DNA from: Betaproteobacteria bacterium
GTDB lineage: Bacteria; Pseudomonadota; Gammaproteobacteria; Burkholderiales; Ga0077523
Direction of reading: 5' to 3'
Length of the DNA stretch: 55,665 nt
NCBI GenBank assembly: GCA_025350245.1
Contig: JANXYG010000150.1
Span: 1 to 55,665, forward strand
This document shows positions 9,405-49,850 of this stretch, piece after piece. The notes under the pieces were generated by a model. It searched no databases. It saw only the letters and a program-made list of their open reading frames with translations, and was not told where the DNA came from. The position numbers were made by a program, and so were the translations under genes. Position 1 is the stretch's first letter; every line of letters starts with the position of its first letter.

Positions 9405-9482
9405 GGGCGGGCCGCTCCCAAGGGCACTGGCCCCCTTGAGGGGGAAGCCGAAGCGCAGCGCAGGCTGGGGGTGGGCGTCACC
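9405..9482 (-). repeat. Sense-oriented 3'-UTR repeat after the threonine dehydratase gene
   Basis: Read on the minus strand this is ACGCCCACCCCCAGCCTGCG, then CTGCGCTTCGGCTTCCCCCT and a CCCCCTCAAGGGGG hairpin. It begins 2 bases past the dehydratase stop codon. The core is shared with copies at 19139, 25253, 26500 and 41924. Confidence 0.75.
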
Positions 9483-9484
9483 TC

Positions 9485-10456
9485 TCAGTCGTGCCCGGCC
9501 AGCACTCGCGCGAACACGGCGCGATCGACGTTGCCGCCGCACAGCACGGTCGCCACGCGGCGCCCGACCACGCGGCCGCGATCGTGCAGCATCGCCGCCA
9601 CGCCGGCCGCGCCCGCGCCCTCGGCCACGTTGTGGGTGGCGCTGAACACCAGCCGCATCGCATCCGCGATCTCGTCTTCATGCACCTCGACCACACGGCT
9701 GACGTGTTCGAGAATCAGGTCGAGGGCGCCCGGTTCCGGCACGCTGCAGGCAAGGCCATCGGCGAGCCCGGGTGCAACCGGCGCCTCGACCACGGCGCGA
9801 GCGGCGAACGAGCGCGCATAGGCTGGCGCCGCCGCGGATACGACGCCGACGATCTCGCAGTGCTGCCCGAGCGCCTGGCGGGCCGCGATGGTGCCGCAGA
9901 TGCCCGAGCCCAGGCCGATCGGCACGTAGATCGTGTCGAGATCGGGTACGGCGCGCATGAGTTCCAGAGCGTAGGTGGCGACACCGCGCACCAGCGCCGG
10001 CGCGAACGACGGCACCATCAGCAACCGGCGGTGATCGGCCAGCATCTGCGCGTGCAGGCGCGCCGCCTGGAAGTCGTCGCCGTGCTCCACGAGTTCGGCG
10101 CCGAGCGCTTTCATCGCCGCGTTCTTCTCGTGGCTGTTGCCGTGTGGCACGACGATGGTGACCGGGATGCCGTGACTTCGGGCGGCCAGCGCAACCGACT
10201 GCCCGTGGTTGCCGCGGGTCGCGCTGATGACGCCGGCGGGCCGTTTGCCGCCGTGCGCGAGTTCGTCGAAGTACACCAGGCCGCCCCGCAGCTTGAACGC
10301 GCCGATCGGCGTGTGATTCTCGTGCTTGATCCAGACCTGCGCGCCGAGCGCCGCGTCGAGCAGCGGCCAGCGATATTGCGGCGTCGGCGCCATGCCGCGA
10401 TAGATCAGGGCGGCGGCGTTCTCGATCTGGTCCAGGCTCGGCAGTTGGCTGTTCAT
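9485..10456 (-). CDS. Threonine/serine dehydratase family protein
   Basis: This 323-residue PLP enzyme is of fold type II. The PLP lysine lies in PIGAFKLRGG, the substrate loop in SATRGNHGQSVA, and the phosphate-binding glycine loop in IGLGSGICG. The family deaminates threonine or serine to 2-ketobutyrate or pyruvate. It lacks the C-terminal ACT-like regulatory domain of biosynthetic IlvA, so it resembles catabolic or threo-hydroxyaspartate-type members. The start at 10456 has AAAGGGTG upstream. It is 28 bases downstream of a methyltransferase gene on the same strand and probably shares its transcript. A dispersed 3' repeat follows. Confidence 0.82.
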   Translation of the reverse strand: MNSQLPSLDQIENAAALIYRGMAPTPQYRWPLLDAALGAQVWIKHENHTPIGAFKLRGGLVYFDELAHGGKRPAGVISATRGNHGQSVALAARSHGIPVTIVVPHGNSHEKNAAMKALGAELVEHGDDFQAARLHAQMLADHRRLLMVPSFAPALVRGVATYALELMRAVPDLDTIYVPIGLGSGICGTIAARQALGQHCEIVGVVSAAAPAYARSFAARAVVEAPVAPGLADGLACSVPEPGALDLILEHVSRVVEVHEDEIADAMRLVFSATHNVAEGAGAAGVAAMLHDRGRVVGRRVATVLCGGNVDRAVFARVLAGHD

Positions 10457-10484
10457 GGCGGGCACCCTTTCGTTGGCATGGCGG

Positions 10485-11105
10485 CTACTGCGGGCGTGCG
10501 GCGCCGATGTAGTGATAACCGGCAAACCGCGGGGCGCCACGCAGGTATGCCTGCTCGAGGCGCGTCACCCGGAACCCGCCGGCGGACAGTTCGGCGGGAA
10601 TGTCGCGATCGAGATGGCAGCCACCGAAGCATCGGCCCCACCATGGTCCGAGCCGCGCCTGCCAGCGCACCACATTGGCGTCGGGGGCCCGCCCGTGCTC
10701 GCAGAACAGCAGTTGTCCGTCGGGCTTGAGCACGCGATGCATGTCGGCCAGCGCGGTCGACAACCCCGGAATCGAGCACAGGGTGTAGGTCACGACGACG
10801 GTATCGAAACTGGAGGCCGGCAGCGGCATCGATTCACCGCCCGATACCAGGAGTTCGAGCGGTACCGCCGATCGGGCCGCGCGCCGCCGGGCAATGTCCA
10901 GTGATGGCGCTGCCGGATCGACGCCGACCACGGCGTTCACCTTGGCCGGGTCGTAGTGGGGCAGGTTGTGGCCGCTGCCGATGCCGACCTCAAGCACGCG
11001 GCCGGTGGCGAGCGGGACGATCTTGCGGCGCTGCTGCGTCACCGCGCTGCAGCCGCATCCCCAGTCGAGCAGCCGGGGCAGCACTAGCCGGTCGTAGAAG
11101 CCCAT
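10485..11105 (-). CDS. Class I SAM-dependent methyltransferase
   Basis: This 206-residue protein has SAM-binding motif I as VLEVGIGSGHNLP, an acidic ribose contact in VVGVDPA and post-motif TLCSIPGLSTALADMHRVLK followed by PDGQLLFCEHG. The arrangement resembles the phosphatidylethanolamine N-methyltransferase/METTL7-type group of small methyltransferases. The N-terminus has a cysteine cluster (DWGCGCSA). It is the first gene of a probable two-gene operon with the threonine dehydratase. The substrate is not evident; a lipid or small molecule is likely. Confidence 0.78.
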   Translation of the reverse strand: MGFYDRLVLPRLLDWGCGCSAVTQQRRKIVPLATGRVLEVGIGSGHNLPHYDPAKVNAVVGVDPAAPSLDIARRRAARSAVPLELLVSGGESMPLPASSFDTVVVTYTLCSIPGLSTALADMHRVLKPDGQLLFCEHGRAPDANVVRWQARLGPWWGRCFGGCHLDRDIPAELSAGGFRVTRLEQAYLRGAPRFAGYHYIGAARPQ

Positions 11106-11237
11106 GGCATCAGCAGGCGCGGTCGCGTGCCGGCGGCGAACGCAGCCGCTCGAACGGCACGACGGGTATCGGGGCGATTGTCATGGCGGTACCGGGTTGC
11201 GTTGTCGCGGGCTGCAAACGGGTTCAACATCACCCGC

Positions 11238-12446
11238 ATGATGAGCTGGATTTTGTCACGTGGGGGCGGCATCTGCCGGGCGTTCGGTGTTTTCCTGGCC
11301 GCGACCGTCACGGCCGGGTGCTCGTCCGCCAGCGCCAATTTCTCGCAGTATCCCGGGTTCGTGGACTATTTCGCCGGGCATCCGCGATCGTCGGTGCTGC
11401 CCACGGGTGACGAGCAGGATCTGTTGCGACGCCATCGCCCGCGTTGGATGCTACCGCCCGGGCACGCCGGTGCCGTCGACTTCTACCGCGACTACATCGC
11501 CAACGGTGTGCTGGTGGATGGCAAAGGGGCGATGGTGTCGTCGCCGGTCACGCCGGCGATGCTCAATGCGCATCGCAACGATCCCGGCGCGGTCTTTACG
11601 CATCGCGCGGTGCGCGGCTCGCCACCGGTGGCGCCGGTGGTGTTCGCCCGCATCGACCGCGAGCGCTTCGAGGCGACCGGCCATTCGCCACGCTGCCTGA
11701 CTCTGCTCACCTACAACATCGTGTTCCGCACGTCCGGCCTGCCGGCTGGTCTCGGCACCTGGACCGCTGGCGCGCTGGGCGTGATCGCCGATCTCGGCGA
11801 CTGGCACCAGCTCGATCACTACACCGCAGCCATGCTGGTGCTTGACGAGAGCGAAGCGCCGGTGATGTTGCGCCTCCAGCAGCACCATCATCAGCGCGTC
11901 TGGGTGTTCGGCGCCGATCTGCCTTCGCCATCCGACGGGCGGCCGGTCATCGATGTCGCCATCCGGTCGAACGAGTTGTACCCACATGCCGATGGCCGCA
12001 CGCGGCATCGGTCGATCCCGATGCCGACCCCCGACCGCATGCGTTACCTGCTCGGCTTCGGACCGGCACCGATGTGGTCCGCGGATGACATCACCGACGG
12101 TCGCGATGAAGCCGACCCTGCGCTCGCGTTCCTGCCGCACGACGATGCGTTCTACGGTTTCCAGGGGTGGCTGGGCGAGCGGCGCCGGCTGCCGGGGCGC
12201 GACGGGCCGCCGGGGGCGGACTACAACACCTTGCCGGCGCTTGCGCCGGCGTCATTGCAACTCGCGGCCGGCTACTGGCGCGAGGGCAATCGCGAGGATC
12301 TCGCCGCGGTCGAGGCCGGTTTCGCGCATGCGGCGGCGCTCGCCGCCTTCGCGACCGCGCGCCGTGCCGTGCTCGCCGGCGTGCTCGAACAGGTGAGCGC
12401 GCCGCCCGCCGCTACAACAGATTGCGGCTCGACAGCTCGTCCTTGA
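11238..12446 (+). CDS. Lipoprotein of unknown function
   Basis: This protein of about 402 residues starts MMSWILSRGG and has a lipoprotein signal peptide ending VTAGC|SS, so it should be acylated on that cysteine. The mature part has conserved-looking patches DWHQLDHYTAAMLVLDE, LQQHHHQRVWVFGADLP and DVAIRSNELYPH, rich in His and aromatic residues, but I do not recognise the family. A metal- or ligand-binding periplasmic protein is possible. It is divergent from the methyltransferase gene, and its 3' end overlaps the convergent transporter gene by 35 bases. The start could be either of two adjacent ATGs (11238 or 11241). Confidence 0.6.
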   Translation: MMSWILSRGGGICRAFGVFLAATVTAGCSSASANFSQYPGFVDYFAGHPRSSVLPTGDEQDLLRRHRPRWMLPPGHAGAVDFYRDYIANGVLVDGKGAMVSSPVTPAMLNAHRNDPGAVFTHRAVRGSPPVAPVVFARIDRERFEATGHSPRCLTLLTYNIVFRTSGLPAGLGTWTAGALGVIADLGDWHQLDHYTAAMLVLDESEAPVMLRLQQHHHQRVWVFGADLPSPSDGRPVIDVAIRSNELYPHADGRTRHRSIPMPTPDRMRYLLGFGPAPMWSADDITDGRDEADPALAFLPHDDAFYGFQGWLGERRRLPGRDGPPGADYNTLPALAPASLQLAAGYWREGNREDLAAVEAGFAHAAALAAFATARRAVLAGVLEQVSAPPAATTDCGSTARP

Positions 12447-13428
12447 GATAGGCGTAGAAGATCGGCGCGGCGATGACACCGGCGATGCCGAATGCCGCTT
12501 CCATCACCACCATCGCCATCAGCAGTTCCCACGCGGCGGCTCGAATCTGGCTGCCGACGATGCGTGCGTTCACAAAGTATTCGAGCTTGTGGATGATCAC
12601 CAGGAACGCGAGTGACCCGACCGCTGCGCCGAGGGAATAGCTCAGGCTGACCACCACGATGATCGCGTTCGAGATCAGGTTGCCGATCACCGGCATCAGC
12701 CCGACCAGGAAGGTGATCGCGATCATGGTCTTGGCGAACGGCAGGTGGATGCCGAGAACCGGCAGCACCACCCCGAGGTAGATGCCGGTCAGGGTGGTGT
12801 TGAGCGCGGAGATGCGGATCTGCGCGAAGACGATGCGGCGGAAGGCGGCGCCGACCCGGTGGGCGCGTTCGACCATCGCCCGTGCCAGCGGGCCGAGCGT
12901 CTCGGACGGCAGCGCTTCCCGCAGCGATATCAGGGCGCCGATGACCATGCCGACCAGGATGTGCACCAGGGCCATGCCCACGCCCTTGCCGACCATCTGC
13001 AGCTCGGTGGCGTGTTCGCGCAGCAGTTGGCTGACCGTGTGGCGCAGCGCTTCGGCATTCTCGGGCAGGCCGTCCGCCATCGAGGCCGGCAGCTTGCCGC
13101 GTGCGCCGTCGAGGATGTCCGCCATGCGCGCGAGCAGCGCCGAAATGCTCCCGGCGTCGCTGCGGAAGAACGTGATCGCGCCGATCACTGCCAGGGTCAG
13201 CACCGATACCACCAGCGTGGCGAGAATGGCCACGGCCACCAGTTTGCCGCGGGTGCGGTGGATGCGGATCAGCGCCAGACGCGGCGCCAGCAGGTGGACC
13301 AGTTGATGCACCAGCAGCCCCGCCAGCAGCGCCGACAGCAGATGCAGCTTGAGGATCAGGAACAACAGGCCGGCGGCGACGCACCAGGCGGCGATCTCAT
13401 AGCGGGTCGGTGGCGAGACGGTGGTCAT
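12412..13428 (-). CDS. AI-2E family transporter (PerM/YdiK-like)
   Basis: This 338-residue inner-membrane protein has about eight hydrophobic segments: a pair at the N-terminus, one near residue 70, a soluble middle portion, and a dense C-terminal membrane block. It includes the family pattern FAQIRISALNTTLTGIYLGV and LVGLMPVIGNLISN. The AI-2E/PerM family exports small molecules or ions; members include TqsA and Na+/H+ antiporters, so substrate assignment is open. The start at 13428 was chosen because the transmembrane region begins just after it; upstream codons are composition-biased and not family-like. It is monocistronic. Confidence 0.75.
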   Translation of the reverse strand: MTTVSPPTRYEIAAWCVAAGLLFLILKLHLLSALLAGLLVHQLVHLLAPRLALIRIHRTRGKLVAVAILATLVVSVLTLAVIGAITFFRSDAGSISALLARMADILDGARGKLPASMADGLPENAEALRHTVSQLLREHATELQMVGKGVGMALVHILVGMVIGALISLREALPSETLGPLARAMVERAHRVGAAFRRIVFAQIRISALNTTLTGIYLGVVLPVLGIHLPFAKTMIAITFLVGLMPVIGNLISNAIIVVVSLSYSLGAAVGSLAFLVIIHKLEYFVNARIVGSQIRAAAWELLMAMVVMEAAFGIAGVIAAPIFYAYLKDELSSRNLL

Positions 13429-13501
13429 GGACAAAGGGAGGGGTGCGGCAATTCGTGGCCCGGATTCTCGCACGCGAGGCGGCGCGCGCCCGGGGTCATC
13501 G

Positions 13502-14695
13502 TCATGCGGCCCTTGCGGCCGATGCTGTCCGCAGTCCCGGCGCGAGGCGTTCCAGACCCTGCTCCAGACGCGGGATGTCGCTCGCGAAACACCAGCGCAC
13601 GAAGCCCTCGCCCTCGGGGCCGAAGGCACTGCCTGGCGCCAAGCCCAGGCCGAACTCGCGCACCAGGCGCTTGCACAGCGCAAGGCTGTCGGTGACGCCG
13701 CGCACCTTGAAGAAGAGGTACATGGCGCCGCTCGGCAGTGCCGCCTCGATGCCGTCGATCTCGTTCAGGCGTCGATGCAGGAAATCGCGCGCCACCCGGA
13801 AGCGCTCGCGCGTGCGCTCGATCACCGGCTCGCCATGCAGCACGGCCGCCAGGCCCGCGCGCTGCACGAAGCCGGGGGCGCACGAGGTGTTGTATTCCAC
13901 CAGCGTGCCCAGCGCCGGCATGAGCGATGGCGGCGCCACGATCCAGCCCAGGCGCCAGCCGGTCATGAGCCACGATTTCGAGAACGTGTTGGTGCTGATC
14001 ACGCGCTCGTCCGGGTCGGCCAGATCCAGAAACGACGGGGCGACCGTGTCGCCCGGCGGGCCGTAGTAAAGCCGTTCGTAGGCGTCGTCGGCCAGCACCC
14101 AGATGCCGTGCCGGCGGCAGTGCGCCAGGATGGTTTTCTGCGTCTCGCGGTCTATGGTCCAGCCGGTCGGGTTGCCGGGCGAGTTGAGGTACAGCATGCG
14201 CGTGTCGGGCGTGAGCACCGCCAGCAACCGATCGAGGTCGAGGGTCCAGCGCCGGTCGACGATCGATAGCGGGAACGTCACGGCCTCGGCGCCGAGGATC
14301 TTCGGGATCTCGACCAGGTTGGGCCACACCGGCGTGACGATCACCGCGCGGTCGCCCGGTCCGACGATGGCCTGGGTCGCGAGCATGAGCGCCGACATGC
14401 CCGAATTGGTGACCACGATGGTGTCGTCCGCGGTCGGGCGATGCAGCCGCGACACGTAGTCGGCGAGCGCTGCGCGCAGCGGCGGGATGCCGAAGTTCTG
14501 GGTGTAGAACGTGTCGCCCGCTTCGAGCGCCTCGATGCCCGCGCGGCGGATGAATTCGGGCGTCACTTCGTCGGGCTCGCCGAACCAGAACTGCAGGATG
14601 TCGCTGCGGCCCATGCCGGCGTTGGCAACCTCGCGAATCTGCGATGCGCGCAGGGAGCGGACGGCGGGGCGGGCGACGGCAGGCATGGCGTTCAT
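13502..14695 (-). CDS. Class I/II PLP-dependent aminotransferase
   Basis: This 397-residue fold-type I aminotransferase contains NSPGNPTGW, the PLP-phosphate and pyridine contacts DDAYERLYY, the Schiff-base lysine in NTFSKSWLMTGWRLGW, and the C-terminal substrate arginine in FVRWCFA. It resembles aspartate/aromatic aminotransferase-like proteins. The amino donor and acceptor cannot be told. It is divergent from the semialdehyde dehydrogenase gene with about 108 bases between them, which must hold both promoters. Confidence 0.85.
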   Translation of the reverse strand: MNAMPAVARPAVRSLRASQIREVANAGMGRSDILQFWFGEPDEVTPEFIRRAGIEALEAGDTFYTQNFGIPPLRAALADYVSRLHRPTADDTIVVTNSGMSALMLATQAIVGPGDRAVIVTPVWPNLVEIPKILGAEAVTFPLSIVDRRWTLDLDRLLAVLTPDTRMLYLNSPGNPTGWTIDRETQKTILAHCRRHGIWVLADDAYERLYYGPPGDTVAPSFLDLADPDERVISTNTFSKSWLMTGWRLGWIVAPPSLMPALGTLVEYNTSCAPGFVQRAGLAAVLHGEPVIERTRERFRVARDFLHRRLNEIDGIEAALPSGAMYLFFKVRGVTDSLALCKRLVREFGLGLAPGSAFGPEGEGFVRWCFASDIPRLEQGLERLAPGLRTASAARAA

Positions 14696-14803
14696 GGCGG
14701 GGTCCGGGGTGGCAAGGGCGCGATTCTGTCACGCATGAGGTACCTGGCGCGGGCCATCGTGCGCTATGGGGTAGCATCGCGGATCGAACAGGGAGGAAAC
14801 AAA

Positions 14804-16243
14804 ATGTCCACGCTGCACAGCAACTACATTGCCGGTGAATGGGTCGCCGGGGCCAACGTCACCCGCGACATCAACCCTTCCGACACGTCCGACGTGGTCG
14901 GCGAATTCGCCCAGGCCGATGCCGCGCAGGCCACGACGGCGATCGATGCGGCGCGCGCCGCGTTCCCGGCGTGGGCGGCATTCAACATCCAGGCGCGCGC
15001 CGACCTGCTCGAGAAGGTCGGCCTGGAAATCATTGCCCGCAAGGATGAGTTGGGCAAGCTGCTGTCGCGCGAGGAAGGCAAGACCCTGCCCGAAGGCATG
15101 GGCGAGGTGGTGCGGGCGGGCAACATCTTCAAGTTCTTCGCCGGCGAGGTGCTGCGGCGCGCGGGCGAACTGCTGCCGTCGGTGCGACCCGGTATCGAGG
15201 TCGAGATCACCCGCGAACCGCTGGGGGTGGTGGGCATCATCGCGCCCTGGAATTTCCCGTCGGCGATTCCGGCCTGGAAGATCGCGCCGGCGCTGGCGCA
15301 CGGCAACTGCGTGGTGATGAAGCCGGCGGATCTGGTGCCCGGATCGTCGTGGGCGATCGCCGAGATCATCCATCGAGCCGGTTTTCCAGCCGGGGTGTTC
15401 AATCTGGTGATGGGGCGCGGCAGCGTGGTGGGCGAGGCGATGCTGGAGGATCCGCGGGTCGATGCCATCACCTTCACCGGGTCGGTCGACACCGGCCGCA
15501 AGGTCGCGGCCAAGGCGCTCGCCGGCATGAAGAAGTTCCAGCTCGAGATGGGTGGCAAGAATCCGCTGGTGGTGCTCGACGACGCCGATCTGAAAGTGGC
15601 GGTCGAGAGTGCGGTCAACGGCGCGTTCTTCTCCACCGGCCAGCGCTGCACCGCGTCGTCGCGGCTGATCGTGACCAAGGGTATCCACGACCGGTTCGTG
15701 GCGGCGCTGGTCGAGCGGCTGAAAGGGCTGGTGATCGGCAACGCGCTCGAGCCCGGCGTGCATATCGGGCCGGTGGTGGATCAGTCGCAACTCGAACAGG
15801 ATCTGTTCTACATCGGCGAGGCGAAGAAAGAAGGTGCGACTCTCGCGTTCGGGGGCAACCGGCTGAAGCGCAAAACCGAGGGCTTCTATCTCGAGCCCGC
15901 GCTGTTCACCGGCACCGTGGCGAGCATGCGCATCAACCGCGAGGAAGTGTTCGGGCCGGTGGCGAGCGTGCTCGTCGCCGCAGATTACGACGAAGCGCTC
16001 GCGCTCGCCAACGACACCCCATTCGGCCTGTGCGGCGGCATCTGCACCACGTCGCTCAAGTATGCGACGCACTTCCGCCGCCATGCGCAGGTGGGCATGG
16101 CAATGGTCAACCTGCCCACCGCGGGCGTCGACTATCACGTGCCGTTCGGCGGCCGCAAGGGATCGAGCTACGGGCCACGCGAACAGGGTCGTTACGCGCA
16201 GGAGTTCTTCACGACGGTGAAGACTTCCTACGTGGCGTCGTAA
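14804..16243 (+). CDS. Aldehyde dehydrogenase, alpha-ketoglutaric semialdehyde dehydrogenase-like
   Basis: This 479-residue NAD(P)-dependent aldehyde dehydrogenase has IAPWNFPSAIPAWKIAPALA, the catalytic Glu in LEMGGKNP and the catalytic Cys in FFSTGQRCTASSRL. It looks closest to the 2,5-dioxovalerate dehydrogenase group (GucD-type), which ends sugar-acid and hydroxyproline degradation by making 2-oxoglutarate. That subfamily assignment rests on recalled similarity in EGKTLPEG and VRAGNIFKFFAGE. ATG 14804 follows GGGAGGA. The gene is directly upstream of an exported SurE-like gene, 2 bases apart. Confidence 0.83.
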   Translation: MSTLHSNYIAGEWVAGANVTRDINPSDTSDVVGEFAQADAAQATTAIDAARAAFPAWAAFNIQARADLLEKVGLEIIARKDELGKLLSREEGKTLPEGMGEVVRAGNIFKFFAGEVLRRAGELLPSVRPGIEVEITREPLGVVGIIAPWNFPSAIPAWKIAPALAHGNCVVMKPADLVPGSSWAIAEIIHRAGFPAGVFNLVMGRGSVVGEAMLEDPRVDAITFTGSVDTGRKVAAKALAGMKKFQLEMGGKNPLVVLDDADLKVAVESAVNGAFFSTGQRCTASSRLIVTKGIHDRFVAALVERLKGLVIGNALEPGVHIGPVVDQSQLEQDLFYIGEAKKEGATLAFGGNRLKRKTEGFYLEPALFTGTVASMRINREEVFGPVASVLVAADYDEALALANDTPFGLCGGICTTSLKYATHFRRHAQVGMAMVNLPTAGVDYHVPFGGRKGSSYGPREQGRYAQEFFTTVKTSYVAS

Positions 16244-16245
16244 CC

Positions 16246-17232: not shown

Positions 17233-17296
17233 CCCGCTTGCCCCCGTCCGGCGAATCCGGTAGAACCGGAGCGAATGTGTCGGAGCGGAGTCGGGC

Positions 17297-19164: not shown

Positions 19165-19271
19165 ACGAAGGGTGCCTCTGGAGCAAAGGGCTCCCGTCCG
19201 CAGGGTCCCCCGAGGAACGGGGCGCCCCCTCGGGGGGGAAGGCGAAGCGCAGCGCAGCCTGGGGGGGTAGT
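19139..19271 (-). repeat. Sense-oriented 3'-UTR repeat after the LprI-like gene
   Basis: Read on the minus strand: ACCCCCCCAGGCTGCGCTGC, then GCTTCGCCTTCCCCCCCGAG, GGGGCGCCCCGTTCCTCGGG and on. A second GCTGCGCTTCGCCTTCG stretch lies at the far end (19140-19156). It starts 2 bases past the stop codon at 19274. It is one of the longest copies in the window. Confidence 0.75.
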
Positions 19272-19273
19272 CC

Positions 19274-20020
19274 TTAACAGTCCGCGTCGCTGATCCAGCC
19301 GGCGGGCCTGCCGTTGACGTCGAGCACCTGGGTTGCCGCGCGGCAGGCCGGCGGGCGCTTGGCATCGAGGTGATAGACCGGCCCGGCGTTCGGCAATGAC
19401 GCTTCCGGATCGCGCACCCGGAAATCGAACACCTTGTGGCCGTCGGCATGCGCCATGCAGACCCATTCCTTCTGTTGCCAGTCGACCAGGCGCATGCCGA
19501 TGGTGCCGTCGTCGCCGGCGCGCCATACCACCAGTGCCTTGCTGATCGGATTGGGCGCCTCTTCGCGACAGGCGCGGATGGCGCGCTGGTACTTCGAAAG
19601 CTCGCGGGTCCAGCCGCGGCCCGCTTCGGCGATCGAATCGGGCGGTAGTTCTTCCACGATCTGGCGGCGCTCGCCCGGATAGGCGGGTCGCGATTCCAGT
19701 GCGGCGATCTGGTGCTGGTAGCGATCCTCCAGGCAGGCCGCCGGTTCCGATGCTTCGCGGCATTCGTTGCGGCTGGCCGACCAGGCGCGCTGTTCGTCTT
19801 GGAGCGAGCGCCGCGCGGTGCCGCTGGTCACCCTGAGCATGCGCGCGTAGGCGACGGCGAGTTGCAGGTCGAGGTCGGACAGGCGCTCGGACCCGCAGAT
19901 GGTGGTCTGCATCCACCCCTTTGCCTTGGTGCACAGGAAGCTCGGCGTTGCTGCGTTCGCCGCGCCGCCGGTGGCAAGCATCGCGGCCGCGACCGCCACG
20001 AGCAAGGAATTAGTTTTCAT
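19274..20020 (-). CDS. Exported LprI-like (DUF1311) protein
   Basis: This 248-residue protein has a signal peptide (MKTNSLLVAVAAAMLATGGA, then ANA). The N-terminal domain carries the DUF1311/LprI cysteine pattern: FLCTKAKGWMQTTICGSERL with LSDLDLQLAVAYARML, LQDEQRAWSASRNEC, and CLEDRYQHQIAAL. LprI-type proteins inhibit host lysozyme. The C-terminal half (from about residue 135) is a separate beta-rich region that I do not recognise. The start codon lies inside the end of the M23-like gene (11-base overlap), so the two are co-translated. Confidence 0.7.
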   Translation of the reverse strand: MKTNSLLVAVAAAMLATGGAANAATPSFLCTKAKGWMQTTICGSERLSDLDLQLAVAYARMLRVTSGTARRSLQDEQRAWSASRNECREASEPAACLEDRYQHQIAALESRPAYPGERRQIVEELPPDSIAEAGRGWTRELSKYQRAIRACREEAPNPISKALVVWRAGDDGTIGMRLVDWQQKEWVCMAHADGHKVFDFRVRDPEASLPNAGPVYHLDAKRPPACRAATQVLDVNGRPAGWISDADC

Positions 20021-21043: not shown

Positions 21044-21766
21044 ATGACGTCGGTGGTCGGCCTGGATGGCTGTCGCGCGGGCTGGGTCGCGGCGTTCGCC
21101 GAGTTCGCCGACGGCCAGCCGCAGGTGGTGCGGCTCGATCTGCGTCTGGTCGAGCGCTTCGAGGAGTTGCTTGCGCTGGCGGTGCCACCGGTCGTGATGG
21201 CGGTCGACATGCCGATCGGCTTGCCGTCCCGTTACCTGCCGGGTGGGCGGCGCTGCGACCAGGAAGCCCGGCAACTGCTGGGCGCCGGGTGGACGTCGAG
21301 CGTGTTCAGCCCGCCCGCACGCTCGGCGCTGGAAGCATCGGACCACCAGCATGCCATGGTCTTGCAGGGCGGCGGATTGTCGATCCAGTCGTTCAACATC
21401 GTGCCGCGGATTCGCGAGATCGACGCCGTGATTGCGCCGGCGCATCAGGCCTGGATACGAGAGGCTCATCCCGAACTGGCGTTTCGCGGCCTCAACGACG
21501 GGCGCCAGTTGCGGCACCGCAAGCGCACCACTGCCGGACAACGAGAGCGTACTGCCCTGTTGCGAAAGGTGTTCGGCGCGGCCCTGCCCGATCCGGCGGG
21601 CGTGCGGCTTCGGCTGGGTCCGCGCGGGTTGGCCATCGATGACGTGATCGATGCGCTCATGCTGGCGGATGTCGCCCGGCGGATCCATCGACACGAGGCG
21701 CATCGGGTGCCGGTCGGCGCCCCCCCGCTCGACGCCCACGGCCTCCGCATGGAGATCTGGTTCTGA
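21044..21766 (+). CDS. DUF429 family protein
   Basis: This 240-residue protein opens MTSVVGLDGCRAGWVAAFAE, with VVMAVDMPIGLP and a late AIDDVIDALMLADVARRI. These are the conserved acidic patches of DUF429, an RNase H-like-fold family of predicted nucleases with no settled role. ATG 21044 puts the conserved GLDGCRAGW near the N-terminus as is usual; an upstream ATG at 20987 is possible. It is divergent from the M23-like gene and followed by the dispersed 3' repeat. Confidence 0.75.
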   Translation: MTSVVGLDGCRAGWVAAFAEFADGQPQVVRLDLRLVERFEELLALAVPPVVMAVDMPIGLPSRYLPGGRRCDQEARQLLGAGWTSSVFSPPARSALEASDHQHAMVLQGGGLSIQSFNIVPRIREIDAVIAPAHQAWIREAHPELAFRGLNDGRQLRHRKRTTAGQRERTALLRKVFGAALPDPAGVRLRLGPRGLAIDDVIDALMLADVARRIHRHEAHRVPVGAPPLDAHGLRMEIWF

Positions 21767-21870
21767 GGTGACAACGCCCCCCAGGCTTCCTTCGGTCGCC
21801 CCCCCACTGGGGGGCGCAGCGTCCTCGGGGGACCCTGTGGGCGCTGCCCCTCCGCTTCCCATACTCCCCG
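21767..21870 (+). repeat. Sense-oriented 3'-UTR repeat after the DUF429 gene
   Basis: This starts right after the stop codon: GCCCCCCAGGCTTCCTTCGG, CCCCCCCACTGGGGGGCGC, then TCCTCGGGGGACCCTGTGGG and GCGCTGCCCCTCCGCTT. The distal half is nearly the same as in the copy after panC (49743-49850). The proximal core is diverged. Confidence 0.7.
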
Positions 21871-21877
21871 TTTCGCT

Positions 21878-25252: not shown

Positions 25253-25400
25253 CATGAAACGTCCACCCCCAGGCTGCGCTGCGCTTCGCCAACCCCCTTG
25301 GGGGCCAGTTCGCTCGGGAGCGGCCCGGCGCTCACTGAAATGAGATCCCCCCAAGGCTTGCTTGGGTCGTCGAAGTGCCCCCCGCTCCCGGATTCGAAAC
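25253..25400 (+). repeat. Sense-oriented 3'-UTR repeat after the radical SAM gene
   Basis: It begins 7 bases past the stop: TCCACCCCCAGGCTGCGCTG, then CGCTTCGCCAACCCCCTTGG and GGGCCAGTTCGCTCGGGAGC, then GGCCCGGC. A second, related block (CCCCCCAAGGCTTGCTTGGG...) follows at 25347. The first block is closest to the copy at 9405-9482. Confidence 0.75.
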
Positions 25401-26499: not shown

Positions 26500-26640
26500 G
26501 TAACTCCCACCCCCAGGCTGCGCGGCGCTTCGCCTTCCCCCTCCAGGGGGCGCCCCGCCCTCGGGGGGGCCTGTGGGCGGGGCCCCCCGCTTCCGAAGTC
26601 CCTTCGTTCAGCCGCTCCTTCGTTCGGTAGCACTCCGTGC
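26500..26640 (+). repeat. Sense-oriented 3'-UTR repeat after sodB
   Basis: TCCCACCCCCAGGCTGCGCG, then GCGCTTCGCCTTCCCCCTCC, AGGGGGCGCCCCGCCCTCGG, then GGGGGCCTGTGGGCGGGGCC and CCCCGCTTCC. Several nested GC stems could form. It begins within 10 bases of the sodB stop and reaches close to the stop of the convergent DUF192 gene. Confidence 0.75.
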
Positions 26641-40564: not shown

Positions 40565-40571
40565 CGGTTCG

Positions 40572-41923: not shown

Positions 41924-41977
41924 ATTGACGCCCACGCCCACCCCCAGCCTGCGCTGCGCTGCGGCTTCCCCCTTCGT
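41924..41977 (+). repeat. Sense-oriented 3'-UTR repeat after the HAD gene
   Basis: ACGCCCACCCCCAGCCTGCG then CTGCGCTGCGGCTTCCCCCT. It begins within 10 bases of the stop codon and is a short copy lacking the distal GC stems. The pcnB promoter follows immediately. Confidence 0.7.
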
Positions 41978-42003
41978 TTTCCGTGAGATCAAAAGTCGCT
42001 GTG

Positions 42004-42009
42004 TATAAT
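42004..42009 (+). promoter_or_regulatory. Candidate -10 element of the pcnB-folK operon
   Basis: TATAAT at 42004-42009 in a short AT-richer patch, 48 bases before the pcnB start codon. A clear -35 hexamer is not seen at 17 bases upstream (CCGTGA). It lies just beyond the repeat that ends the HAD gene, as expected if transcription restarts here. Confidence 0.5.
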
Positions 42010-42056
42010 TCGCTGCTTCCGCCTGCCCCGGTCCGAAGCTTCGCAAGTCCTTGTCC

Positions 42057-43487: not shown

Positions 43488-43489
43488 CC

Positions 43490-44008
43490 ATGATCCGATC
43501 GTCCGACGCGACTGTCTGGGCCTTCGTCGGCCTGGGGTCGAACCTCGACGTGCCGCGCCGCCACCTCGAAGACGCGCTCGATGCGTTCGATGCCTTGCCG
43601 GACACGCGCATGCTGCGATGTTCGTCGTTCTACCGCACCGCGCCGGTGGGCTTCGCCGAACAACCCGACTTCATCAATGCGGTCGCGATGGTCGAAACGC
43701 GATTGACGCCGCGCGAATTGCTCGATGCCCTGCTCACCATCGAGCACGAACACGGGCGTGTCAGGCGCGAGCCCAACGGCCCGCGCACGCTCGACCTCGA
43801 TCTGCTGCTTTACGGGTCGATCGTTCATCATGAAGAAGGTCTCACCGTGCCGCATCCGCGGATGCACGAGCGGGCGTTCGTGATGGTGCCGTTGGCCGAG
43901 ATCGCGCCCGGGGCCGAGATTCCGGGCCACGGCGCTGCCATCATGGTCGCGCGCGAGCTCGGGCATGACCAACGGGTGGAGGCCCTGGCATTCGATGCGG
44001 TTGCCTGA
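43490..44008 (+). CDS. folK: 2-amino-4-hydroxy-6-hydroxymethyldihydropteridine diphosphokinase
   Basis: This 172-residue enzyme pyrophosphorylates the pterin precursor of folate using ATP. It has AFVGLGSNLDVPRRHLEDAL, FYRTAPVGFAEQPDFINAV, the signature GRVRREPNGPRTLDLDLLLY and VPHPRMHERAFVMVPLAEIA. It starts 2 bases after the pcnB stop and overlaps the kinase gene by 14 bases. The neighbouring panB needs a folate cofactor. Confidence 0.94.
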   Translation: MIRSSDATVWAFVGLGSNLDVPRRHLEDALDAFDALPDTRMLRCSSFYRTAPVGFAEQPDFINAVAMVETRLTPRELLDALLTIEHEHGRVRREPNGPRTLDLDLLLYGSIVHHEEGLTVPHPRMHERAFVMVPLAEIAPGAEIPGHGAAIMVARELGHDQRVEALAFDAVA

Positions 44009-44639
44009 CTGCTTCCGGCATGTCGCTGTCGAAGGCCCGATCGGCGCTGGCAAGACCAGCCTGACGAAACGCCTCGCCGAAGCCACCGGCGCCACTGCCT
44101 TGCTCGAGGATCCCGGCGCGAACCCGTTTCTCCCAGCGTTCTATCGCGATCCGGACCGGCACGCCCTGGCGACCCAGCTCTTTTTCCTGTTCCAGCGGGT
44201 CGACCAGTTGGGCGAGCTCTGCCAGCCCGATTTTTTCACGGCGGCCACGGTGTCCGACTTTTTCTTCGACAAGGACCGCCTGTTCGCCCGGCTCACGCTG
44301 TCTGATCACGAGTTCGATCTGTATCGCAAGATTTTCGAGCACCTCGCACCGCAGGCCGCGGCGCCGGATCTCGTCATCTACCTCCAGGCGAGTCCGCGTG
44401 TGCTGGCCGAGCGCGTGCGGCGCCGCGGCATCGGCTACGAAAGCAGCCTGACCCAGGCCTACCTCGCCCGTGTCGCCGATGCCTACAGCCGCTTCTTTCT
44501 CGACTACGCCGCCGCGCCGGTGCTGGTGGTGAACAGCGAGCGCCTCAACTTCATTGAAAAGCCCGAAGACTTTGCGCTACTGTTGCGCCGCATCGCAGAC
44601 ATGCGGGGCAATCGCGAATACTTCAACGCGGGCGTCTGA
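43995..44639 (+). CDS. Deoxynucleoside kinase-like protein
   Basis: This 214-residue P-loop kinase has Walker A VEGPIGAGKTSL (residues 12-23), ALATQLFFLFQRVDQL, the DRLFARLTLSDHEFDLYRKI region (ERS-like motif region), and lid VRRRGIGYE. It resembles deoxyadenosine/deoxyguanosine kinases that salvage deoxynucleosides. The same gene is conserved between folK and panB in many betaproteobacteria. ATG 43995 lies within the end of folK. Confidence 0.83.
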   Translation: MRLPDCFRHVAVEGPIGAGKTSLTKRLAEATGATALLEDPGANPFLPAFYRDPDRHALATQLFFLFQRVDQLGELCQPDFFTAATVSDFFFDKDRLFARLTLSDHEFDLYRKIFEHLAPQAAAPDLVIYLQASPRVLAERVRRRGIGYESSLTQAYLARVADAYSRFFLDYAAAPVLVVNSERLNFIEKPEDFALLLRRIADMRGNREYFNAGV

Positions 44640-44704
44640 CGACGCCTTTCTTCGACCATGTCGGGCGCGCATCGTGCGACGCCCGAGCACCCAGCGAGGC
44701 AACC

Positions 44705-45496
44705 ATGCGCATCACACTCACCAAGCTCCTGCAGATGGCGCGCGACCGGCAACGGATCGCGATGATTTCCTGCTACGACGCGATCTCCGCCCGGCTGGTG
44801 GAAATGGCGGGAGTCGACATCATCCTGGTCGGCGATTCGCTCGGCATGCTGGTCCAGGGGCACGACTCGACCCTGCCGGTGTCGATGGAGGAACAGCTCT
44901 ACCACACGCGCTGCGTGGTGCGCGGCTGCGCCACCCCGTTCATCCTCGGCGACATGCCGTTCGGCAGCTATCAGGGCGGCCCGCAGGAGGCATTCGCCAA
45001 TGCTGCACGGTTGATGGCGGCCGGATCGCAGATGGTCAAGCTGGAGGGCGGCGCGGTGATGGCCACGACCGTCGCGTTCCTGGTGGAACGCGGCATCCCG
45101 GTCTGCGGCCACGTCGGCCTCACGCCGCAGTCGGTCAATGCGCTCGGCGGCTTTCGCGTCCAGGGCAAGACCGACGATTCGGCCGCGCGCCTGCTCGATG
45201 ACGTGAAGCGGCTCGAGGACGCCGGCATGTCGATGATCGTGGTCGAAGCGGTGCCGGCGGCCCTGGGCGCGCAGATCACCCGCGCAGTGTCGATGCCCAC
45301 CATCGGCATCGGCGCTGGCGTCGATTGCGCTGGGCAGATCCTGCTGCTGCACGATCTCATCGACATGGTGCCGGGCAAGAAGGCGCGCTTCGTGAAGAAT
45401 TTCATGGTCGGCTCGAGTTCGATCCTGCAGGCGGTCGAAGGCTTCGTGCGCGAGGTCAAGGACGGCAGTTTTCCGGGTCGGGAGCACAGCTACTGA
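44705..45496 (+). CDS. panB: 3-methyl-2-oxobutanoate hydroxymethyltransferase
   Basis: This 263-residue enzyme moves a hydroxymethyl group from 5,10-methylene-tetrahydrofolate to 2-oxoisovalerate, the first step of pantothenate synthesis. It shows MISCYDAISARLVEMAGVDI, the metal site VGDSLGMLVQGHDSTLPV, LEGGAVMATTV, HVGLTPQSVNALGG and a C-terminal IGAGVDCAGQILLLHD. In many relatives panC follows directly. Here two other genes intervene (45543-48871). Confidence 0.95.
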   Translation: MRITLTKLLQMARDRQRIAMISCYDAISARLVEMAGVDIILVGDSLGMLVQGHDSTLPVSMEEQLYHTRCVVRGCATPFILGDMPFGSYQGGPQEAFANAARLMAAGSQMVKLEGGAVMATTVAFLVERGIPVCGHVGLTPQSVNALGGFRVQGKTDDSAARLLDDVKRLEDAGMSMIVVEAVPAALGAQITRAVSMPTIGIGAGVDCAGQILLLHDLIDMVPGKKARFVKNFMVGSSSILQAVEGFVREVKDGSFPGREHSY

Positions 45497-45542
45497 CCGC
45501 GCCCGCGACCCGATCGCGAGCACGGACCATCGAGACGGCATC

Positions 45543-46427
45543 GTGCCGGAAACACCCGGTCAGGCGGTCGCCGCGATTGCGCTGCTGCCCTGCTGGCGCG
45601 GTCGCGTCGATCCGGTGCCTCTGCCCGGTGGCATCACCAATCGCAACTTCCTGGTCGACGATGGTGGCGAACGTTTCGTGGTGCGCCTGGGCGCCGACAT
45701 TCCGGTCCACGGCATCCTGCGTTTCAACGAGCTGGCGGCGAGCCGCGCAGCCTTCGCGGCCGGCATCTCGCCCGAGGTGGTGTTCGCCACCGGCGGCGCC
45801 CTGGTTCTTCGCTTCATCGAGGGAGTCACGCTCACGCCGGCCCTGGTGCGCGATGAGCGCATCCTGCCGATGGCGGTCGACCTGCTGCGTCGTTGCCACG
45901 AGCGCGTCGGGCGCCATCTGCGCGGCCCCGCGCTCATGTTCTGGGTGTTCCAGATCCTGCGCGGCTATGCGCTCGAATTGCACGAGCATGGCAGCGCGCG
46001 GCGCCTGCTCATGCCGGACCTTCTCGCGCGTGCCGAACGGCTCGAACAGGTGGTTGGTCCGATCGACGTGGTGTTCGGGCACAACGATCTCCTCGCGGCC
46101 AACTTCATCGACGATGGTGCCCGGCTCTGGCTCATCGACTGGGACTACGCCGGCTTCAACAGCCCGCTGTTCGACCTCGGCGGGCTGGTGTCGAACAACC
46201 AGCTATCGAAATCGCAGACCGGGTTCGTGCTGGATCGCTACTTCGGCACGGTCGATGCCGCGCTGCGCCGCCGTCTTGCCGCCATGATCTGCGCATCGCT
46301 GTTGCGCGAGGCGGTGTGGAGCATGGTCTCCGAGATCCACTCGACCATCGCATTCGACTACGTCGCCTACACCGATGATTACCTTGCGCGCTTCGAACTT
46401 GCCTGGGACGACTTCGAGGCAATGTGA
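45543..46427 (+). CDS. APH/choline-kinase-like phosphotransferase
   Basis: This 294-residue protein has a GTG start. The kinase fold is recognised by the N-lobe GGITNRNFLVDDGGERFVVR, Brenner motif VFGHNDLLAANF (catalytic D182) and the metal motif LIDWDYAGFNSPLFDLGG. The group covers aminoglycoside, choline and other small-molecule kinases; GHNDLLAANF/IDWDYAG is the choline/ethanolamine-kinase style. The TGA stop shares one base with the ATG of the next gene (TGATG), so they are co-translated. The substrate is unknown; given the partner, a methylated amine or amino alcohol is worth testing. Confidence 0.8.
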   Translation: MPETPGQAVAAIALLPCWRGRVDPVPLPGGITNRNFLVDDGGERFVVRLGADIPVHGILRFNELAASRAAFAAGISPEVVFATGGALVLRFIEGVTLTPALVRDERILPMAVDLLRRCHERVGRHLRGPALMFWVFQILRGYALELHEHGSARRLLMPDLLARAERLEQVVGPIDVVFGHNDLLAANFIDDGARLWLIDWDYAGFNSPLFDLGGLVSNNQLSKSQTGFVLDRYFGTVDAALRRRLAAMICASLLREAVWSMVSEIHSTIAFDYVAYTDDYLARFELAWDDFEAM

Positions 46428-48871
46428 TGTCCGCACTTCCAACCCAGGCGCAGATCGTCGTGATCGGCGGTGGTATCGTCGGCTGCAGCGTCGCCTACCA
46501 CCTCGCCGGGCTCGGTTGCCGCGACGTGGTCGTGATCGAACGAGCCAAGCTCACCAGCGGGTCCACGTGGCACGCCGCTGGTCTCGTGGGCCAGTTGCGC
46601 ACGTCCGCCAACGTCACCCAGTTGCTCAAGTACAGCGTCGAGCTGTACGAGCGCCTGGAGCGCGAGACCGGGCAGGCCACGGGATGGAAGCGCAACGGCG
46701 GCCTGCGCCTGGCGTGCAACGCCGAGCGCATGACCGAGATCCGTCGTCAGGCGACCACGGCGCACAGCTTCGGCCTCGAGATGTACCTGCTCTCGCCGAC
46801 CGAAGCCCGCGACCTCTGGCCGGTGATGGATGGGTCCGATCTGGTCGGCGCCGCGTTCCTCCCGACCGACGGCCAGGCCAATCCGTCCGACATCGCCCAG
46901 GCGCTTGCCAGGGGCGCTCGCGCCAAGGGCGTTCGTTTCGTCGAGGATTGCATCGTCGAGGCGGTCCGCGTGGAGCGCGGCCGGGTCGCCAGCCTGACCA
47001 CATCGCTCGGCCCCATCGGCTGCGAGAAGGTGGTCAACTGTGGCGGCCAGTGGGCGCGTCACATCGGCAGCCTGGCCGGCGTCAACGTCCCGCTGGTGTC
47101 GGTGCAGCACCAGTACATCATCACCGAGCCGATCGTCGGCGTTTCGCGCGACCTGCCGACCCTGCGTGACCCCGACCGCCTCATCTACTTCAAGGAGGAA
47201 GTGGGTGGACTGGTCATGGGCGGCTATGAACCCAACCCCCTGCCTTGGGCGGAGAGCGGCATACCGGACGGGTTCGAGTTCCAGCTTCTGCCGGAAAACT
47301 GGGACCACTTCGAGCCGATGATGGTGCAGGCCATGGCCCGCGTGCCGGCACTCGAGACCGCCGGCATCAAGCAGCTCGTGAACGGGCCGGAGTCGTTCAC
47401 GCCGGATGGCAACTTCATCCTGGGGGAAGCCCCGGAAGTCGCCGGTTTCTTCGTCGGAGCAGGGTTCAACGCGTTCGGCATCGCCTCGGCCGGTGGCGCC
47501 GGTCGCGCGCTGGCCGAATGGGTTGCCGCGGGTGAACCGCCGATGGATCTGTGGCCGGTCGACATCCGGCGCTTCGGCGCGCCGCATCGGTCCACCGACT
47601 GGGTCCGCAAACGTACGCTCGAAGCGTATTCGAAGCATTACACGATGGCTTGGCCGTTCGAGGAGTACCGCAGTGGCCGGCCGCTGCGGACCTCGCCGCT
47701 ATACCCGACGCTCATGGAACAGGGAGCCTGCTTCGGCGAGAAGATGGGCTGGGAGCGGCCCAACTGGTTCGCGCCACCCGGCGTCGAACCCGAAGATCAT
47801 TACAGCTACGGACGCCAGAACTGGTTCGTCCACACCGCGCGCGAGCATCGCGCCTGTCGCGAGAACGTCGCGCTGTTCGACGAGAGCTCGTTCGCGAAGT
47901 TCGAGATCGTCGGACCGGGGGCGGAGCGGGCCCTGCAGTGGATCTGCGCCAACGACATCTCCAGGCCGGTCGGGAGCCTCACCTACACGCAGATGCTGAA
48001 CGCCCGCGGTGGCATCGAGTGCGATCTGACCGTGGCGCGCATCGCGCCCGACGCGTTCTATCTCGTCACCGGAACCGGCTTCGTCGCTCATGATTTCGAC
48101 TGGATCCGGCGCAACGTGCCCGCCGATTGCGATGTTCACCTCGCCGATGTCACATCGACTTGGGCGGTGCTGGCGCTGATGGGGCCGCGTGCCCGCGACG
48201 TGCTCGCGGCGGTCACCCGCACCGATGTCTCGCACGCCGCGTTCCCGTTCGCGACCTGGCAGCCGGTCGACATCGACGGCACTGAGGTTCGCGCGCTGCG
48301 CGTCACCTACGTCGGCGAGCTCGGCTGGGAGCTGCATGTCCCCGTCGACCGCGCGCTCGACATCTACCAACACCTCATGGCGGCCGGCGCCGCGCACGGC
48401 ATCGTCAATGCCGGCTACCGGGCGATCGAAACGCTCCGGCTCGAGAAGGGCTATCGCGCGTGGGGCAGCGACATCGGTCCGGACCATTCGCCGCTGGAGG
48501 CCGGGCTGGCGTGGGCCGTGAAGCTGCGCGGCGACCTGCCGTTCCTCGGGCGCGAGGCGCTGATGTGCCAGCGCGAGTCGTTGCCGAAGAAGGTGCTTTG
48601 CTGCTTTTCGGTTGCCGACCGATCGGTGGTGCTGCTCGGGCGCGAGACGATCTACCGCGACGACAGGCGCGTGGGCTGGCTCACCAGCGGCGGATTCGGG
48701 CATACCGTTGGCATGAATATCGGCTACGGATACGTGCGGGCTGTCGATGGCGTGAGCGATGCCATGCTCGATCGCGGCCGCTACGAACTGGAAGTCGCGG
48801 CTGCGCGCATGCCGTGTACCCTGCACCGGCAACCGCTGTACGACCCGACATCGCAACGGGTCCGGTGCTGA
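46427..48871 (+). CDS. Dimethylglycine/sarcosine dehydrogenase-like FAD protein with GcvT domain
   Basis: This is an 814-residue protein. Residues 1-390 are an FAD-dependent amine oxidase: the dinucleotide motif IGGGIVGCSVAYHLAG, and H49 in STWHAAGL, the site of covalent FAD in this family. A linker domain follows, then a GcvT-type folate-binding domain (about 450-715) with MLNARGGIECDLTVARI and a C-terminal barrel (725-805) with KGYRAWGSDIGPDHSPLEAG. Such enzymes demethylate N-methylated glycines and hand the one-carbon unit to tetrahydrofolate as 5,10-methylene-THF. The substrate is not proven. It lies between panB and panC, and PanB uses that cofactor. Confidence 0.83.
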   Translation: MSALPTQAQIVVIGGGIVGCSVAYHLAGLGCRDVVVIERAKLTSGSTWHAAGLVGQLRTSANVTQLLKYSVELYERLERETGQATGWKRNGGLRLACNAERMTEIRRQATTAHSFGLEMYLLSPTEARDLWPVMDGSDLVGAAFLPTDGQANPSDIAQALARGARAKGVRFVEDCIVEAVRVERGRVASLTTSLGPIGCEKVVNCGGQWARHIGSLAGVNVPLVSVQHQYIITEPIVGVSRDLPTLRDPDRLIYFKEEVGGLVMGGYEPNPLPWAESGIPDGFEFQLLPENWDHFEPMMVQAMARVPALETAGIKQLVNGPESFTPDGNFILGEAPEVAGFFVGAGFNAFGIASAGGAGRALAEWVAAGEPPMDLWPVDIRRFGAPHRSTDWVRKRTLEAYSKHYTMAWPFEEYRSGRPLRTSPLYPTLMEQGACFGEKMGWERPNWFAPPGVEPEDHYSYGRQNWFVHTAREHRACRENVALFDESSFAKFEIVGPGAERALQWICANDISRPVGSLTYTQMLNARGGIECDLTVARIAPDAFYLVTGTGFVAHDFDWIRRNVPADCDVHLADVTSTWAVLALMGPRARDVLAAVTRTDVSHAAFPFATWQPVDIDGTEVRALRVTYVGELGWELHVPVDRALDIYQHLMAAGAAHGIVNAGYRAIETLRLEKGYRAWGSDIGPDHSPLEAGLAWAVKLRGDLPFLGREALMCQRESLPKKVLCCFSVADRSVVLLGRETIYRDDRRVGWLTSGGFGHTVGMNIGYGYVRAVDGVSDAMLDRGRYELEVAAARMPCTLHRQPLYDPTSQRVRC

Positions 48872-48908
48872 CCCTTTCATTCCTTCTCGATCACCATCAC
48901 CGAAATTC

Positions 48909-49742
48909 ATGGAAGTCATCCGCACCATTTCCGATCTCCGCGCCCGTCTCAGCGGCGAGCCCCGCGTCGCCCTGGTTCCGACCATGGGTAACATCCATGA
49001 AGGGCACCTCAGTCTCGTGCACATCGGCCACGCGCAGGCGCCGCTGGTGGTGACCAGCATCTTCGTCAACCGCTTGCAGTTCGGCCAGGGCGAGGATTTC
49101 GATCACTATCCGCGCACCTTCGCCGACGATTGCGAAAAGCTCGCCGCCGCCGGCAACCACATCGTGTTCCACCCCGACGAAACCCAGTTGTACCCCGAGC
49201 CCCAGGTGTTCGTGGTCGAGCCGCCACCCATTGCCAACAAGCTCGAAGGCCGGTTTCGGCCGGGTCACTTCCGCGGCATGGCCACGGTCGTGCTCAAGCT
49301 GTTCAATGCGGTGCAGCCGCAGATCGCGGTGTTCGGCAAGAAGGACTACCAGCAGATCTCGATCGTGCGGCACATGGTCGATCAGTTCGCGCTGCCGCTG
49401 TCGATCGTGCGCGCCGAGACCGTGCGGGCGCCAGACGGCCTGGCGCTCAGCTCACGCAACCGCTTCCTGTGCGAGGTCGAGCGCGCCGAAGCGCCGCGCC
49501 TGCATCGCGCGCTCGCGCGGGTGAAAGAGCAGGTCGAAGCCGGTGACCTCAATTTCGAGGCGATCGAGTTCGGCGCCGACACCGAACTCGCCCGGCATGG
49601 CTGGCACATCGATTACGTGGTGGTGCGCAGCCGTCGCACGCTGATGCAACCCGAGGATGACGAGAAGGAACTGGTCGTGCTCGGCGCGGCCAAGCTCGGT
49701 GCCACGCGTCTCATCGACAATCTGGAGATTCTGGCGCCCTGA
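48909..49742 (+). CDS. panC: Pantothenate synthetase
   Basis: This 277-residue enzyme joins pantoate and beta-alanine using ATP. It has [15 protein letters not shown] with the HxGH motif (H30, H33), [48 protein letters not shown] and [10 protein letters not shown]. The canonical NP/SQF loop is NRLQF here. ATG 48909 gives the normal MEVIRTI start. It is 37 bases after the dehydrogenase-like gene and followed by a dispersed repeat. Confidence 0.93.
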
Positions 49743-49850
49743 AGTATTACGCCCACCAGGCCGCGCTGCGCCTTCCCTCACCGGGGGGGCGCAGCGGCCT
49801 CGGGCCGCTGGCACCCGGTGGGCGCTGCCCCTCCGCTTTGCAGACTTCCC
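49743..49850 (+). repeat. Sense-oriented 3'-UTR repeat after panC
   Basis: TACGCCCACCAGGCCGCGCT, then GCGCCTTCCCTCACCGGGGG, GGCGCAGCGGCCTCGGGCCG, and GGTGGGCGCTGCCCCTCCGC then TTTGC. The proximal part is diverged, but the distal GGGCGCTGCCCCTCCGCTT equals that of the copy after the DUF429 gene. It runs up to the convergent DUF4124 gene. Confidence 0.7.

Follow-up and report, generated by a model that had tools for sequence, protein, structure and literature searches.

Among the described repeats of the beta-proteobacteria is BRE, an element of 75–91 bp and about 69% GC that occurs in tandem, usually in intergenic positions, in Comamonadaceae and Bordetella and in at most 29 copies (Hot et al. 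2011, PMC3110155). The accessible part of that description gives no analysis of stop codons, gene orientation or structure, and by our own reading its Table 3 lists no divergent context (PMC3110155). In Escherichia coli, as far as the accessible excerpts go, malE is stabilised by a structure without a U-tract that lies between operon genes (PMC5927463, a study that includes E. coli Term-seq), and stalling of ribosomes is reported for REPs no more than 15 nt from a stop codon (PMC12306157).

The element described here resembles what is available of the BRE description in that it is a unit of 85 positions whose matches have a GC content of 0.60–0.88, occurs in tandem and is found in several families of its order. 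On this likeness of description, rather than of sequence, it probably belongs to the same superfamily. REP/BIME elements, as characterized in the excerpts, are likewise repeated hairpins that occupy 3′ UTRs and the gaps between genes of an operon, some of them no more than 15 nt from a stop, and they stabilise the upstream mRNA; the present element differs in being mostly sense and three-part, with arrays that are mostly head-to-tail rather than alternating BIME clusters. It also shares with the malE-malF decay barrier a structure without a U-tract between operon genes, seen in relatives, where the mean fold z is −2.9 as compared with −1.1 in the genome studied here. Like a terminator it places hairpins in the 3′ UTR in sense; unlike one, it has no U-tract that our insensitive search could find, and it also lies inside operons. 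In the literature outside subscription journals, we found no paper that treats either the structure of such a betaproteobacterial repeat or its position next to stop codons.

Results

Seven copies lie directly behind stop codons in the window

The window is the whole stretch of 55,665 nucleotides that was analysed. The core of the repeat, CCACCCCCAGSCTGCGCTGCGCTTCG, was found at five places in it with up to three mismatches, whereas none was expected from 100 shuffles. A covariance model of the unit (R1) matched at exactly seven places (E 2e-12 to 0.034), the same seven that had been listed by the initial annotation, and at no further place at E ≤0.1.

9409..9480, minus strand: copy 1, behind the PALP-fold gene (stop 9485–9487, minus); type II third hairpin; R1 E 3.5e-7
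19189..19274, minus strand: copy 2, behind the LprI-like gene (stop at 19274, minus); R1 E 5e-11
21769..21849, plus strand: copy 3, diverged, behind the DUF429 gene (ends 21766); R1 E 4e-8
25257..25340, plus strand: copy 4, behind the radical SAM gene (ends 25252); type II third hairpin; R1 E 9e-5
26501..26585, plus strand: copy 5, a complete unit and a row of alignment A2, behind sodB (ends 26497); R1 E 2e-12
26515..26535, plus strand: P1 hairpin of copy 5 (AGGC/GCCT), A2 columns 15–35
26537..26550, plus strand: P2 hairpin of copy 5 (CCCCC/GGGGG), A2 columns 37–52
26552..26583, plus strand: P3 hairpin of copy 5, A2 columns 55–87; four pairs changed on both sides
41932..42018, plus strand: copy 6, behind the HAD gene (ends 41923); core with one mismatch; R1 E 0.034
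49744..49830, plus strand: copy 7, diverged, behind panC (ends 49742); R1 E 5e-4; fold z −2.6

The R1 match started no more than 8 nt behind the stop at all seven places, the copy at 19189 overlapping its stop, and in the five core-bearing copies 6 to 15 nt separated the core from the stop. All seven read in sense with the host gene, five on the plus strand (stops at 21766, 25252, 26497, 41923 and 49742) and two on the minus strand (9485 and 19274), so that the close spacing and common orientation previously noted are borne out. The host genes were also as named before, with Pfam assignments of PALP, LprI, DUF429, radical SAM, Fe-SOD, HAD and PanC; the ‘dehydratase’ is a PALP-fold enzyme. Copy 6 is truncated within P2, retaining P1 and half of P2 without the G-run and P3, and five of the seven copies had a fold z above −1. 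No Rfam family matched above its gathering score in the window or in 20 element-bearing loci. A doubtful eighth copy, suggested at 6813, had neither core nor R1 match and was rejected.

Other repeats are present in the window. A different inverted repeat, GGGGTCAGGTCTTGCA, which we take to be of the kind found beside Y1 transposases, lies at 3276–3359 and 2149–2176, and a near match to it occurs in the locus of one Y1 gene of the same genome (L312). Segments at 213–646 and 1452–1607 are duplicated with 75–86% identity.

The placement holds across the source genome

The source genome of the window (G000; 3,988,757 bases in 156 contigs) contained 261 copies at up to three mismatches, 128 and 133 by strand, against 0 and 0 for a reversed-pattern control. 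Placement was assessed in a sample made up of the window and forty 20-kb stretches (855,665 bases, 0.86 Mb), in which R1 gave 111 matches at E ≤0.1. One hundred copies with up to five mismatches collapsed into 74 arrays, 71 of them evaluable. A coding sense stop lay within 20 nt of the 5′ side at 57/71 loci and in the mirrored position on the 3′ side at 4/71; a simpler coding score gave 58 and 5. Random spacer positions (spacers ≥100 nt) gave a mean of 5.1/71 and a maximum of 9 in 21 draws. An antisense share of about 50%, or many copies away from gene ends, which the initial annotation had named as evidence to the contrary, did not arise; yet 14/71 loci had no clear sense stop within 20 nt, and some of these face oppositely oriented genes according to our own gene calls.

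The distance from stop to core had a mode of 9–11 nt, and that from stop to P1 stem a median of 16 nt (range 6–23; 58 loci). In the sample, about 7.5% of gene ends are followed by the element, a density that is not unbiased, since the stretches come from contigs in which copies had already been found. Tandem arrays had a spacing of about 81–105 nt and were mostly head-to-tail, with one inverted pair (L039, +1150 and its mate). Contigs C15, C45, C76, C82, C94 and C146 have copies no farther than about 300 bases from their ends; tandem arrays therefore probably broke the assembly, and the true number of copies may be higher.

Pairing within the unit is kept through compensatory changes

The unit consists of a linker (often GTGACGCC), CACCCCC and the hairpins P1, P2 and P3, followed in G000 by a C/T-rich tail. 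P1 has the form AGSC/GSCT with a 13-nt loop and P2 the form CCCCC-TCNA-GGGGG, while P3 is composed of an outer stem, an inner stem and a small loop; a second type of P3 occurs in 11/93 extracted units. An SD-like GGTGA ahead of the core was present at only 14/58 loci. Alignment A2 comprises 53 of the 93 units, all of type I, with units truncated in arrays left out. P2 and P3 are palindromic in it, and 97.2% of its cells are paired, as compared with 91.3% in shuffled alignments.

Compensatory change was evident in the number of double-change cells: A2 had 61, whereas shuffles gave 15.3 ± 3.0 and slid controls never more than 15. Pairs with a double change were barely more numerous than in the shuffles (6 against 4.5; 26/500), and further pair types showed no excess (16 against 15.6; 261/500). 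Pair 17–33 of P1 is GC in 40 and CG in 8 of the 53 rows, and the outer pairs of P3 exchange A-U, C-G and G-C. Because shuffles ignore relatedness, the slid control and the data from other genomes weigh more. Alignment A3 holds 25 elements, namely the 24 pattern-selected elements described below minus L203, which has another inner stem, plus two rows from genome G107. Double changes affected 12/22 of its pairs, 95.4% of its cells were paired, and it contained 49 double-change cells against 10.0 ± 2.5 in shuffles and at most 10 in slid controls.

The apical triloop of P3 read NRA on the sense strand in 46/53 G000 units and in 25/25 and 93/93 elements, against 43/830 background GGC-NNN-GCC sites; the register is our own reading and, for G000, lies one position off the structure used in the A2 pair count. 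Folding energies were less distinctive. The fold z against shuffles averaged −1.1 for the 53 G000 units, with 19% below −2, and −2.9 for 25 elements from other genomes, and no folding advantage of the sense strand was found, the sense strand being stabler than the antisense in only 11/53 and 7/25 rows. On A2, RNAalifold preferred an alternative fold in which the first C-run pairs with the G-run. This would allow a possible switch in which the first C-run and P2 compete for the G-run; C-run lengths in G107 are correlated (rho 0.90), but only 9/105 rows depart from 5-5-5.

Relatives carry elements of the same shape in other sequence

Genome scans with the models scored 150, 2 or 13 candidates per genome, and the copy numbers from them are lower bounds. 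In the 11 congeners of the source organism the core was not found with up to three mismatches, and R1 at E 0.01 had no match among the 150 candidates scored per genome; the family-level genome set consisted of the same twelve genomes as the genus-level set. Orthologs of the radical SAM gene in 10 congeners had no element behind the stop. The highest identity of the radical SAM protein among named relatives was 72%, to the MAG Betaproteobacteria bacterium Ga0077523, which has exactly the same sequence as congener G001 behind the stop. The exact core had no match in a collection of 84,980 species, from which the source genome itself may have been left out, and a G000 copy used as query found no match among plasmids.

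Outside the genus, the pattern CACCCCCN{8,30}CCCCCTCNAGGGGG occurred in 17/399 genomes of the order, with none in any genome for the reversed control. A P1 architecture with other stem sequences was present in 12 of these 17: G000, three genomes of family f4 and eight of family f49, or by hand count 3/12 f4 and 8/11 f49 genomes. The remaining five were left out, as they have a different motif without P1 at the places listed. A broad regular expression for the architecture was dropped, its matches being not directional. Model R2, built from P2 and P3 of 25 elements of ten other genomes, matched 12/399 genomes of the order at E 1e-4 (13 candidates scored per genome) and missed G000 at that threshold. 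On four G000 sources it recovered known copies from E 0.0009 upwards, though no G000 sequence is in the model, and it weakly matched copy 3 of the window (E 0.07); on the congener stretches supplied it found nothing.

Eight plasmid records also carry the element, the named carriers being Variovorax, Diaphorobacter, Comamonas, another member of the Comamonadaceae and Methylibium. Several copies in G210 (L368, L369, L371) and G377 (L376–L382) have an extra hairpin within the P2 loop, for example CCCCCTTCTCTC...GGGAAGGGGG. G140 and G389 (L215, L216, L226, L227; families f48 and f23) contain another repeat that lacks P1, CACCCCCACCCCGGCCCTCCCCC(C)TCAAGGGGGAGGGA with its variants.

The position behind stops recurs in these relatives. 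Reading frames were called with a model trained on G000, which agrees with four annotated CDS ends and with trpA. In G107, 106 copies (103 distinct) collapsed to 59 loci, 43 of which had a sense stop within 40 nt ahead of the element, against 1/59 in the mirrored position. For pattern-selected elements of ten further genomes a sense stop lay within 25 nt in 21/24 cases (mirrored, 0/24); of elements selected by structure in four genomes, 34/41 had such a stop within 60 nt of P2 (mirrored, 0/41). These two sets share seven loci; from the second, 5/46 matches had been dropped (four further array copies and one weak match on the opposite strand), and 45/46 listed places of the four genomes were covered. 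In the four annotated plasmid records of the eight, an annotated stop precedes the element by 2 to 8 nt, and in two unannotated V. paradoxus records, apparently of the same locus, it directly follows the stop of a LuxR-like open frame. In relatives, elements lie less than 10 nt behind a stop within evident operons, in one case separating the small and large permease genes of a TRAP transporter, in another arsC from an arsenic transporter gene, and in a third a dioxygenase from an aldolase gene.

Exceptions occur in each set. A clear sense stop was lacking at 16/59 loci of G107, 3/24 and 7/41. In an unannotated Variovorax record (L339, near 1456–1464) the element lies ahead of an oppositely oriented ORF that we take, from its translation, to be Dcd-like, and in an orthologous pair (L351/L356) it lies ahead of an oppositely oriented ORF that is presumably substrate-binding-protein-like, again judging by translation. 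The Methylibium element overlaps an annotated transposase CDS on the opposite strand.

One copy is constrained between two species

In G210 and G377, which belong to one genus, an element is situated between trpA and accD (NCBIfam names). The two copies are identical at 102/109 positions, as compared with 38/72 for the rest of the spacer, 87/96 for the end of trpA and 32/38 for the start of accD. Two of the seven differences constitute one compensatory pair, G-C to A-T, in P3; the others, by our own reading, affect the linker, hairpin loops and the unpaired base after the outer stem. The trpA-accD copy is thus under constraint between the two species. The pair was picked up because both copies are strong matches, so the comparison bears on constraint of a retained copy, not on the frequency of retention. 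A second shared locus, L351/L356, is also kept, and the elements differ more there.

Discussion

We propose that the repeat is a REP-like RNA element that shields the 3′ end of the upstream message and is not a terminator, a reading to which we give about an even chance. Sense placement, together with look-alikes of the same shape in other letters in other Burkholderiales, indicates that it probably acts in messenger RNA; judged from sequence, action at the RNA level is well supported. Orientation, loop polarity and pairing all fit such action, which fold energies alone do not show. Against it, pairing could also persist by quasi-palindrome correction or serve single-stranded DNA.

The element would be transcribed in sense with its gene and fold, directly behind the stop, into up to three hairpins, with the C-rich linker holding the first stem at the median distance of about 16 nt. 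Such a distance is near the expected edge of a terminating ribosome. The stems would most likely block 3′–5′ exonucleases, so that the coding region ahead of the element would persist longer than the transcript beyond it, as with the REP at malE-malF; a barrier of this kind would not end transcription and could occur within operons as well as at message ends. The role in decay we infer, and transcription of the element, the exonuclease block and an effect on protein level are likewise presumed. The decay barrier is put first because the operon copies without U-tract resemble malE and because the first stem has its median at 16 nt, against a stalling limit of 15 nt.

The initial annotation had suggested a shared 3′ processing, stability or termination element. 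The shared sense 3′ element stands, given 57/71 against 4/71 loci, the other genomes with other sequences and the covariation, and a stability or processing role would fit the sequence data. Termination fits badly. An intrinsic terminator without U-tract, or a Rho-dependent one in which the C-rich stretch loads Rho and the hairpins trap the trimmed 3′ end, would suit the 3′ UTR position, the sense orientation and the C content of the 60 nt behind stops (0.447 with and 0.343 without the element). A perfect stem with T-tail, however, was found at 0/58 loci in a crude search, an insensitive one given that only 5/300 element-free ends matched. The next gene is co-directional at 39 and convergent at 19 loci, as compared with 549 and 166 for element-free ends, no significant convergent excess (Fisher p 0.11); against co-directional gaps of at least 20 nt, p for gene-end orientation was 1.0. 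Copies moreover lie, in relatives, between subunits of one transporter and within an ars operon, and we regard a terminator as improbable. Scarcely different in likelihood, if slightly lower, is a translational element whose hairpin near the stop slows termination or recycling. It would account for the tight spacing from the stop, with a mode of 9–11 nt for the 5′ end and a median of 16 nt (range 6–23) for P1, and the accessible part of the REP study offers a precedent within 15 nt of the stop (PMC12306157); in most copies, however, the linker puts the first stem at or beyond the reported 15-nt stalling limit, and A2 columns place the start of P3 at about 50 nt from the stop. A role for the hairpins as a protein-binding site, contacted at the NRA loop, or as a source of 3′-UTR-derived sRNAs is very unlikely, though the loop is conserved and the accessible part of the BRE description places a BRE copy in the bprJ1/bprJ2 small-transcript region of B. 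pertussis (PMC3110155).

A selfish mobile repeat of the REP/MITE kind, whose insertion or survival favours the spot behind stops with no benefit to the host, we consider unlikely, although less so than the terminator. Its 261 copies in one species and none found in 11 congeners, the tandem arrays at about 81–105 nt, the ten congener radical SAM orthologs without an element and the minority of copies away from stops all point towards mobility, and as a high-copy extragenic palindrome, with P2 and P3 palindromic, the element is like those of REP/RAYT systems. Structural constraint on one orthologous copy and conservation of the triloop and stems between families speak against it. No cognate Y1 transposase gene flanked by copies was found in G000, which has two PF01797 genes, neither with a copy in its locus of about 3.2 kb, and five of eight carrier genomes (G107, G146, G242, G268 and G178) had no PF01797 match, the other three having four genes between them. 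As none was found in G107, with its 106 copies, a Y1 transposase seems unneeded for spread. Mobility and function are compatible with each other. A broader form of the RNA reading, which we hold only tentatively, is that of a portable 3′ UTR: an order-wide, stop-adjacent family defined by shape (C-run, variable P1, C5/G5 P2 and NRA-loop P3), re-amplified in each species in new sequence, may serve as the standard 3′ end for a sizeable share of genes and be placed by a mechanism that reads stops or translation.

With many copies about 10 nt behind stops and mostly in one orientation, ordinary insertion is hard put to explain the distribution. Whether the element is a selfish repeat or a shared 3′ UTR is directly testable in culturable Variovorax or Comamonas, and the covariance model is ready for genome annotation. 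If the element acts in mRNA, one species would have put a common control element on about one gene end in thirteen, as estimated from the sample, while its relatives keep the shape and change the letters.
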